A stretch of 54,256 nucleotides of DNA from NCBI GenBank assembly GCA_021817785.1, contig JAKAFY010000009.1, forward strand, positions 1-54,256, in the 5' to 3' direction. Made by a program: the position numbers and the translations under genes. The stretch comes from a bacterium. Lineage in GTDB: Bacteria; Patescibacteriota; Microgenomatia; UBA10105; UBA927. Positions 7,776 to 45,778 of this stretch are shown here, piece after piece (positions within the stretch are counted from its first letter, which is position 1; the number at the start of each line of letters is the position of its first letter). The notes beneath the pieces are model-generated. The model was not told the origin of the DNA and ran no database searches. It saw only the letters and a program-made list of their open reading frames with translations.

Positions 7776-7805
7776 ACCCCTCCGAAGCTTCAGCGAAGGA
7801 GGGTA
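7776..7805 (+). repeat. palindromic intergenic repeat (CCCTCCGAAG...GCGAAGGAGGG type)
   Basis: The arms CCCTCC (7778-7783) and GGAGGG (7798-7803) enclose a GAAGCTTCAGCGAA core. A closely similar unit occurs at 45685-45711 in the leader of the DUF5679 gene. This looks like a dispersed palindromic repeat. Its right arm carries the only Shine-Dalgarno-like sequence before fusA, although 14 nt from the ATG. Confidence 0.7.
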
Positions 7806-37267: not shown

Positions 37268-37305
37268 AAATCTATATTGACACGACGCGCTATATCTTCT
37301 ACAGT
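37268..37305 (+). promoter_or_regulatory. HU gene promoter with an overlapping operator-like inverted-repeat arm
   Basis: A perfect TTGACA (37277-37282), a 17-bp spacer and TACAGT (37300-37305) form a promoter, with the start near 37312. AAATCTATAT (37268-37277) ends on the first T of the -35 and is an exact inverted copy of ATATAGATTT at 37234-37243. The pair, 24 bp apart, could be a regulator site or DNA-looping site. Confidence 0.7.
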
Positions 37306-37312
37306 GCCTCAT

Positions 37313-37340
37313 AGAGATCGTTGCAACAATCTCTAAAAAT
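37313..37340 (+). other. palindrome at the start of the HU leader
   Basis: AGAGAT-C-GTTGCAAC-A-ATCTCT (37313-37334) is a 22-nt palindrome with one mismatched pair at the very 5' end of the predicted RNA. AAAAATATTTTT follows it. It may protect the RNA 5' end, act as an early attenuator, or bind a protein as DNA. Confidence 0.5.
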
Positions 37341-37362
37341 ATTTTTCTCGTTCTAACCTTCT

Positions 37363-37482
37363 GCCCAACGTTGGAGGCTTGCCTCCCGAAGTCCATCCTC
37401 AGAAGGCTTCGCAAAATTTTTTCCTGAGGTGCGGATTCCCTTTCGCATGACACAAGGGACGGATAGGAGGTGAAATACACAC
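37363..37482 (+). promoter_or_regulatory. structured leader of the HU gene, shared with the DUF5679 gene
   Basis: In order, the element has GGAGGC/GCCTCC (37373-37386), CGAAG, CTCAG (37398-37402) pairing with CTGAGG (37424-37429), and GCTTCG inside. TGCG (37430-37433) can pair with CGCA (37444-37447), and CCC (37438-37440) with GGG (37456-37458); these two pairings cross. AGGAGGTGAA follows before the ATG. The minus-strand leader at 45664-45778 has the same blocks in the same order and spacing. It is either a cis-regulatory RNA or a compound dispersed repeat. Confidence 0.6.
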
Positions 37483-37755
37483 ATGACAAAAGCAGATCTT
37501 GTTGAAGTCGTCGCAAAGAAAGCCAACTTAACCGCAAAAGCCGCGCGTGAAGCGGTGGCTGCAGTTTTTGGCGCCGTCACTGACGCTTTGAAAAAAGGCG
37601 ATAAAGTGGTGGTAACCGGATTTGGTACCTTTATGGTACGAAGCCGGAAAGCACGCACCGGGCGAAATCCCCAGACGGGGACCGCGATCAATATCCCGGC
37701 GCGCAAGACTCCTGGCTTCACCGCTGGGAAAGCACTCAAAAAAGTTGTCCGGTAA
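37483..37755 (+). CDS. hup: HU-family DNA-binding protein
   Basis: A 90-aa histone-like protein that bends DNA and compacts the nucleoid. The start MTKADLVEVVAKKANLTAKAAREAV and the arm GTFMVRSRKARTGRNPQTGTAINIPARKTPGF with the intercalating Pro region are diagnostic. A strong AGGAGGTGAA site and a long structured leader precede it. Its stop codon lies in the loop of a small CCGG/CCGG hairpin with a T-run. Confidence 0.97.
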   Translation: MTKADLVEVVAKKANLTAKAAREAVAAVFGAVTDALKKGDKVVVTGFGTFMVRSRKARTGRNPQTGTAINIPARKTPGFTAGKALKKVVR

Positions 37756-43400: not shown

Positions 43401-43862
43401 TTGGGAACCTCGTAAGCCAGATTCTGTTTCACCATGCCGGCGCTTTTGCGCAGGCGGGTTCTGATTCTCATTTCTCTGATGCCCGTAAACTTCGGTCCTT
43501 CCGAATGCGTGGTTTACCCGAACAAAGTTCTTGCGAAATTTGCGCGGGTTAATAACGGACCATTCGCCGGTTGCAGCAGGTGGGATTGCCTTTTACCCGC
43601 CGTAGCTTTACGCGTAGGCGGGAACGTTTCACACTCTTTACATGCCGTCATAAACATTCTCACGTGGGGAATATTTATTCCGGTTTAGTAAAGAGATCGT
43701 CTCTGTGGCTCTCTCGTCCTGTCAATTCAGGATTCGTTTCCTTTGGCTTTCGCCTCAGGACCACCCGACTTTTCAGCGGGGAGCTTGCGCTCCCTCCCTT
43801 GCATTCTGCTGTCTGGACTTTCCTCCCGCCTCAAACGGCGGGTGAGAATCCGGGTTCCCAAA
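43401..43862 (-). ncRNA. rnpB: RNase P RNA
   Basis: The catalytic RNA of RNase P, which matures tRNA 5' ends. On the minus strand the P1 helix is made by TTTGGGAACCC at the 5' end and GAGGTTCCCAA at the 3' end. The conserved GGAGGAAAGTCCAGACAGC (P4 side and J3/4) is near the 5' end, and the late ACAGAATCTGGCTTAC block near the 3' end. ACAGAGA-type and GAAACGT-like conserved parts lie between. At ~462 nt it is longer than most bacterial forms, so one or more peripheral stems are enlarged. Ends are set by P1 and are approximate. Confidence 0.93.
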
Positions 43863-45522: not shown

Positions 45523-45663
45523 TTAGCCACCGATCTTATACATACCGGTTCCGCAAACTGGGCATTTCCCTTTCATTGCCGGTTTGCCGTTTTTCATCGT
45601 CACTTTGACGGCTTTTGGATCGTCGCGCTTCGCGCGGCATTTTACACAATACATTTCTGCCAT
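45523..45663 (-). CDS. DUF5679-type small zinc-ribbon protein
   Basis: A 46-aa protein starting MAEMYCVKCRAKRDDP, with C6-x2-C9 and C34-x2-C37 (CPVCGTGMYKIGG end). The two CxxC pairs should bind one zinc. It matches the small DUF5679 family common in CPR and some other bacteria, whose function is unknown; it may bind nucleic acid or protein. A strong GGGAGGTGAA site precedes the ATG and the leader is structured. The upstream gene in the same direction is a small tail-anchored protein. Confidence 0.88.
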   Translation of the reverse strand: MAEMYCVKCRAKRDDPKAVKVTMKNGKPAMKGKCPVCGTGMYKIGG

Positions 45664-45778
45664 AGTGTCATTCACCTCCCTTCACCCTCCGAAGTTTTAT
45701 GCGAAGGAGGGTTTCGCACCTCAGTATGTATTGCTTCGAAGCGTTACTGAGAATCGGCTTCGGGAGGCACAGGCCTCA
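45664..45778 (-). promoter_or_regulatory. structured leader of the DUF5679 gene, shared with the HU gene
   Basis: Reading the minus strand: GAGGC/GCCTC, CCGAAG, CTCAG pairing with CTGAG, GCTTCG inside, TGCGAA pairing with TTCGCA, and CCCTCC pairing with GGAGGG, then GGGAGGTGAA and ATG. The last two pairings cross, and CCCTCC could also pair with the ribosome binding site. The element lies between the stop of the upstream gene (45791) and this start. It corresponds block by block to the HU leader at 37373-37482. Part of it (45685-45711) also resembles the palindrome before fusA. Confidence 0.6.

Follow-up and report, generated by a model that had tools for sequence, protein, structure and literature searches.

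The two similar leaders that precede an HU gene and a DUF5679 gene in the window (the whole stretch of 54,256 nucleotides analysed here, from a genome of the class Microgenomatia, Patescibacteriota) are real and related, yet they are not ancestral leaders. Their best account, which we hold to be probable, is a site-specific, non-autonomous palindromic mini-element retained as a structured leader. This putative composite mobile element of ~95 bases would occur Microgenomatia-wide and insert beside purine-rich GGNGG sites, chiefly the extended Shine-Dalgarno sequence (SD) of small-protein genes and tRNA-Ser 3' ends. It would have two hairpins, P1 on the left and the REP-like P5 on the right. A CGAAG-like tag would follow each of them, and the segment joining the hairpins would fold with both into two tandem pseudoknots (P2 crossing P3, and P4 crossing P5). 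It would then become the 5' leader or an intercistronic RNA of the gene at which it landed and, as it ends just before the SD, the gene would keep its ribosome binding site.

The original prediction was that the HU leader (37373-37482, plus strand) and the DUF5679 leader (45664-45778, minus strand) share a series of motifs in the same order, and both leaders were found with these coordinates, motifs and order. By blastn they are 71% identical over 117 nt (E 6.5e-8) and are each other's sole long match within the window. Rfam covariance models, including a lax search of the leaders, gave no family at gathering score, and weak Rfam matches to a snoRNA and to MS2 were attributed to chance. The features are as follows (R2 is the SD-free covariance model described below).

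37373..37464, plus strand: putative inserted composite palindromic element before the HU gene (R2 match 37373-37459, E 5.9e-14; in sister species empty sites, with TCTGCCCRA followed directly by AGGAGGTGAA)
37465..37473, plus strand: extended SD of the HU gene, AGGAGGTGA, host sequence and apparent insertion target (one of only 2 GGAGGTGA in the window; kept in element-less relatives)
37483..37755, plus strand: HU gene, encoding an HU-family DNA-binding protein (PF00216, 1.4e-32)
45682..45777, minus strand: putative inserted composite palindromic element before the DUF5679 gene (R2 match 45685-45777, E 6.4e-19; empty sites in sister species)
45672..45681, minus strand: extended SD of the DUF5679 gene, AGGGAGGTGA, apparent insertion target
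45525..45663, minus strand: DUF5679 zinc-ribbon gene, 46 aa (PF18930, 5.1e-16)

The left edge of the HU element is uncertain and may reach a few bases further, to about 37369. This copy lies 3' of a conserved promoter-like TTGACA..TACAGT region, which the HU leaders of the family (window 37274-37368; loci L043-L066) have in common together with a GAGATTGTTGCAACAATC hairpin. They also share a CCYTCTGCCC motif, a possible pairing partner of the SD in leaders without the element; autoregulation is a possibility. The DUF5679 element starts ~13 nt past the stop codon (45791) of the upstream ORF and is thus intercistronic.

Insertion was indicated by a comparison of the sequence preceding every HU and every DUF5679 gene in 24 genomes of the family. 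The ~95-nt block appears as an exact insertion between conserved upstream sequence and the extended SD AGGAGGTGA that was already there; it is carried by HU in 3 species and by DUF5679 in 2, and nearly all other species have the empty site. In HU relatives, ..TCTGCCC(A/G)A is directly joined to AGGAGGTGAA, and the block sits exactly between these in genomes G000, G005 and G012, the last in a diverged form. For DUF5679 the block is found in G000 and G020, which belong to one genus whose remaining members have the plain site. The GGAGGTGAA common to both leaders is the genes' own SD and not part of the element, because it is present in relatives that have no leader. GGAGGTGA occurs twice in the 54-kb window (~1 expected by chance), exactly at HU and DUF5679, and both sites are occupied; the two genes carry the element because they own the window's only two such sites. 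The whole 1.28-Mb genome has 15 occurrences of GGAGGTGA-N(2-11)-ATG, several of them inside coding sequence. The element shows no evident target-site duplication and lacks a sharp left boundary, both points against the mobile-element account. Comparison of sequences shows the insertion, the empty sites, the association with the target and the covariation.

The G006 and G009 DUF5679 sites carry a different hairpin instead, of the CTAAGAAACACTAAAC..GTTTCTAA type. This second hairpin type, (C)TAAGAAACACTAA..GTGTTTCTAA, also immediately precedes extended SDs; the genes concerned are rplL, DUF5679 and a DUF4870-like gene (loci L337; L328 in G000; L009 and L015 at rplL; L029 and L035 at DUF5679 in G006 and G009). 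In G019 the DUF4870-like gene carries the right half of the first type.

The helices recognised in the two copies are the following.

37373..37386, plus strand: P1 hairpin of the HU copy, GGAGGC/GCCTCC (sequence; arm-target association)
37387..37411, plus strand: P2 of the HU copy, CGAAG (37387-37391) with CTTCG (37407-37411), crossing P3 (sequence; crossing pair drawn for this copy)
37397..37429, plus strand: P3 of the HU copy, CCTCAG (37397-37402) with CTGAGG (37424-37429) (permutation; two-sided changes at 4/6 pairs)
37430..37447, plus strand: P4 of the HU copy, TGCGGA (37430-37435) with TTCGCA (37442-37447), crossing P5 (permutation; alignment covariation)
37438..37458, plus strand: P5 of the HU copy, CCCT (37438-37441) with AGGG (37455-37458), corresponding to the REP-like hairpin of other copies (sequence; covariation)
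45764..45777, minus strand: P1 hairpin of the DUF5679 copy, GAGGC (45777-45773) with GCCTC (45768-45764) (sequence)
45737..45762, minus strand: P2 of the DUF5679 copy, CGAAGC (45762-45757) with GCTTCG (45742-45737), crossing P3 (sequence; pseudoknot score above 60/60 shuffles)
45720..45751, minus strand: P3 of the DUF5679 copy, CTCAG (45751-45747) with CTGAG (45724-45720) (permutation and covariation)
45700..45718, minus strand: P4 of the DUF5679 copy, TGCGAA (45718-45713) with TTCGCA (45705-45700), crossing P5 (permutation and covariation)
45685..45711, minus strand: P5, REP-like hairpin of the DUF5679 copy, CCCTCC (45711-45706) with GGAGGG (45690-45685) (dispersed palindrome in these genomes; covariation)

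The TGCG/CGCA and CCC/GGG pairings cross, as had been pointed out, and we found a further crossing pair absent from the original prediction, CGAAG/CTTCG (P2) with CTCAG/CTGAG (P3). Two tandem H-type pseudoknots are therefore possible. The structure of the element is well supported, with compensatory changes in P3, P4 and P5. For P3, the best helix between its two regions averages 5.73 versus 4.49 after permutation (0/1000; 22 copies). In a 12-sequence alignment, standard pairs fill 89% of the P3, P4 and P5 cells versus 78% when shuffled, with a covariation score of 0.332 versus 0.135 (0/500), and pairing falls to 41-50% when the partners are slid by 1-3 columns. P4 types include TGCGAA/TTCGCA, AGCGAA/TTCGCT, CGCGAA/TTCGCG and GCGAT/ATCGC. 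Over all SD-abutting copies, right halves alone included, the P4 permutation result is modest (16/2000), because many right-half-only copies have no P4; P4 belongs mainly to complete elements. P2 crosses P3 in the family copies and in several others, by a test less strict than that for P3-P5. The automated pseudoknot grammar had a register fault in P5 and was used only for single copies in which it worked. An alternative helix, CCGAAG/CTTCGG, present in some minimum-energy folds, was rejected, since visual inspection showed A-A or T-T mismatches in roughly half of the copies. The helices first proposed thus show compensatory changes across 12-22 copies, and the majority of copies precede SD and start codon in the sense direction, at a constant distance. 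Neither random placement nor a lack of compensatory changes, the two outcomes that would have counted against the original prediction, was observed.

The plain fold, a method unable to show pseudoknots, was computed for 7 copies; most of them have a paired SD (mean unpaired probability 0.00-0.42) that costs 2-10 kcal/mol to open. The pairing is due mainly to CCCTCCTTCGC, a possible partner of GCGAAGGGAGG. In the pseudoknotted state the same strand, CCCTCCTTCGC, would be held by P4 and P5. These folds suggest two RNA states, a tandem pseudoknot in which the SD would be free, and a second in which CCCTCCTTCGC (or GCCTCC of P1) would pair with tag and SD and cover the latter. The element RNA, retained as a leader, may thus gate the SD and so affect translation of the downstream gene. 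That the hairpins act simply as a transcription terminator or stabilise the mRNA, with no specific targeting, is highly improbable: they are stable, and intercistronic in one case and in the 5' UTR in the other, but no T-run follows them, and this reading leaves the position beside GGNGG and the tandem pseudoknots without explanation.

The distribution of the element was examined in 374 genomes of the class. The first covariance model (R1), which was built from three copies because two-sequence alignments by MAFFT were faulty in their 3' half, includes the SD; its matches, biased towards SD sites, were found in 62/374 genomes, upstream of HU, DUF5679, atpE, an RRM protein, an EF-Tu-domain-like protein, treble-clef zinc proteins and others. 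As an unbiased count was wanted, the second model (R2) was built from 12 copies trimmed before the SD. It gave 27 matches at E<1e-7, of which 19 adjoin an SD in sense orientation, 6 adjoin GGCGGAG and 2 neither. ARAGORN placed four of the six GGCGGAG copies at a tRNA-Ser 3' end, antisense and directly abutting (G123, G072, G328 and G147), and called no tRNA at the other two (G147:C1 and the second G123 copy). Two weaker R2 matches also lie at tRNA genes, tRNA-Ser in G262 and tRNA-Asp in G204, bringing the sites confirmed by this program to 6 (5 Ser, 1 Asp). An SD role fails to explain the tRNA-type sites, while a common target GGNGGNG can. Copy number is low, at one to a few per genome, which speaks against a mobile element.

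The original prediction had read one leader at two unrelated genes as a cis-regulatory RNA. Its structure and sense placement stood, and a true class of this kind, riboswitch-like or protein-binding, could control SD access at genes for small, probably abundant proteins; recombination or horizontal transfer would have distributed it, and the dispersed hairpin would be a lookalike. We regard this as possible, if doubtful. It agrees with the fixed position before the SD in the 19 copies, with the compensatory changes in P3-P5, with the anti-SD and SD-like segments and the mostly paired SD of the plain fold, and with the recurrence of the same gene families, HU in 5 species and DUF5679 in 4 (family comparison and R1 contexts). 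It is at odds with the close relatives lying antisense at tRNA-Ser and tRNA-Asp 3' ends, with no translation following, with the patchy presence inside one genus, the mixed functions of the downstream genes and the intercistronic DUF5679 copy. The nearest neighbours of copies also tend against it, being within-genome copies at unrelated genes. An inherited shared leader was not supported, given the empty sites, the antisense tRNA-Ser copies and this within-genome likeness.

The likeness is seen in two G147 copies at different sites, which are 95% identical, and in the G299 DUF5679 copy, whose nearest relative is the copy at another G299 gene (85%), followed by a G293 copy and not by the DUF5679 copy of G133, in the same family. 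As a counter-example, the DUF5679 copies of G000 and G020 match each other best (80%), which would be expected had a single insertion been inherited in the genus, but the G005 HU copy is equally near the G000 DUF5679 copy (80%). Pairing is intact in most copies, and the G000 and G020 copies, which occupy the same site, differ by a two-sided change in P3. Both points suggest selection after insertion, for which a simple relic would have no need. A regulatory role acquired after insertion is possible.

The left hairpin arm tends to match the adjoining target (GGAGG, GGGGG or GCGGA), as judged from the letters. SD copies have GGAGGC/GCCTCC or GGGGGC/GCCCCC as P1, tRNA-type copies GCGGAC/GTCCGC, and in the HU copy the 5' arm repeats the SD core and the 3' arm can pair with the SD. 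Among 20 SD copies, a GAGG P1 goes with a GAGG SD in 10/13 and a GGGG P1 with a GGGG SD in 7/7 (Fisher p 0.003, an optimistic value as related copies are not independent), and all tRNA-type copies have GCGGAC beside GGCGGAG. Such a match could mean that the arm guides target choice, as in IS608, that part of the target was copied, or that the RNA contains an anti-SD/anti-anti-SD pair.

The right hairpin has a wider distribution. In an unbiased scan of GTDB contigs its core turned up as a dispersed palindrome in Lentisphaerota, Verrucomicrobiota, Bacteroidota, Acidobacteriota and Patescibacteria; the feet resemble ACAAG, ACGAAG or ACAGG, and hardly any copy adjoins an SD. A DNA search with the DUF5679 leader retrieved mainly this REP-like hairpin. 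It could thus be imagined that ordinary dispersed palindromes piled up independently beside SDs, no whole unit having moved, and that the leaders resemble each other through common repeat parts. The widespread right hairpin, which also occurs alone before SDs, and the second hairpin type before the SDs of rplL and DUF4870 genes fit this, but we consider it quite unlikely: the full order P1-P2-P3-P4-P5 is kept in copies from many families, with pairs spanning both halves, whole copies at the two G147 sites are nearly the same, and no exact left module turned up separately from the right one. The exact left-module pattern was present in one genome and was not found as a free repeat; its occurrence in two viral contigs was attributed to chance, and the junction pattern was not found in viral contigs. 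The alternative given with the original prediction, a compound of dispersed palindromes beside a ribosome binding site, comes nearer to the origin of the element.

Several further hairpins were observed. Two further REP-like right hairpins lie in the window away from any SD (43590-43621 and 7776-7802, both minus strand), and another lies inside the isoleucyl-tRNA synthetase (ileS) coding sequence in two genera (L018 in G015, L020 in G005). One appears by eye to lie within a variable stem of an FMN-riboswitch-like leader (L011, G001:C1:41973-41999), and a second REP-like hairpin is nested in the P5 loop of one element (L124, G299:C17). At L358 (G187) and L360 (G306) the right part of the element, ahead of the SD, is lengthened by additional internal sequence; the latter variant precedes rplL (ribosomal protein L7/L12).

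For the mini-element, target choice and movement are inferred from comparison, and movement would occur as single-stranded DNA, aided in trans by a Y1-type transposase. Homologues of such transposases are present in 22/27 genomes of the order. Against this account, no autonomous copy and no transposase flanked by element hairpins was found; the 20 Y1 loci examined carry other palindromes. At L304 and L308, Y1 transposase-like genes have identical flanking palindromes with a third copy within the gene (CCTACGAGGA..TCCTCGTAGG; AGCTTCG..CGAAGCT). In a bolder version, which we find rather unlikely as a whole, the left hairpin arm (GGAGG/GGGGG for SDs, GCGGA for tRNAs) leads a mini mobile element to its target. 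A tandem-pseudoknot RNA switch would thereby be placed directly at the ribosome binding site, and transposition would bring the genes of minimal cells under translational control. Little is known about gene regulation in Patescibacteria. If the account holds, a bacterial mini-element would use ribosome binding sites and tRNA ends as safe harbours, and insertion could give rise to regulatory leaders in these bacteria. The link between hairpin arm and target makes a direct, testable prediction on guide-based target choice, and the two pseudoknots with compensatory changes offer a defined RNA for probing.

We found no literature on such elements in Patescibacteria, and four systems known elsewhere were compared. 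CGTC-tagged REP palindromes are short dispersed hairpins with an unpaired CGTC tag at one foot and no dedicated transposase known (PMC3733652). The right hairpin is likewise short, dispersed and tagged at its foot, but the tag on the other strand is TTCG/CGCC here, not strictly CGTC, and the element joins two unlike hairpins in the same orientation, at SDs and tRNA ends. Generic right hairpins of other genomes end in CGTC/TGTC-like tags on the other strand; the leader copies have CGCC/CACC after TT and a low copy number per genome. REP/BIME or REPIN sequences mobilised by RAYT (TnpA-REP) are non-autonomous, with a hairpin and a GTAG tetranucleotide foot (PMC3116915, PMC8266576). The element is also non-autonomous and Y1 transposases occur in most of these genomes, but it has a low copy number and no inverted REP pair, and the foot of both its hairpins is CGAAG (TTCG on the other strand), so that a RAYT-type GTAG is lacking; no RAYT gene flanked by element hairpins was found. 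IS200/IS605 elements such as IS608 have end hairpins in one orientation, choose their target by guide base pairing and make no target duplication (PMC5934647). The element resembles them in its hairpins, near both ends and in one orientation, in the lack of an evident target duplication, and perhaps in target choice, as the agreement in sequence between P1 arm and target would suggest; it differs in that no transposase gene (no ORF) lies within its ~95 nt and in the position of the putative guide. Finally, the TAACTGA repeats of Beggiatoaceae lie just upstream of the start codons of unrelated genes, with a suggested role in translation (PMC4679880). The element too sits just before start codons of unrelated genes, but those repeats are heptamer direct repeats without structure, whereas the element is a folded 95-nt unit abutting the SD.
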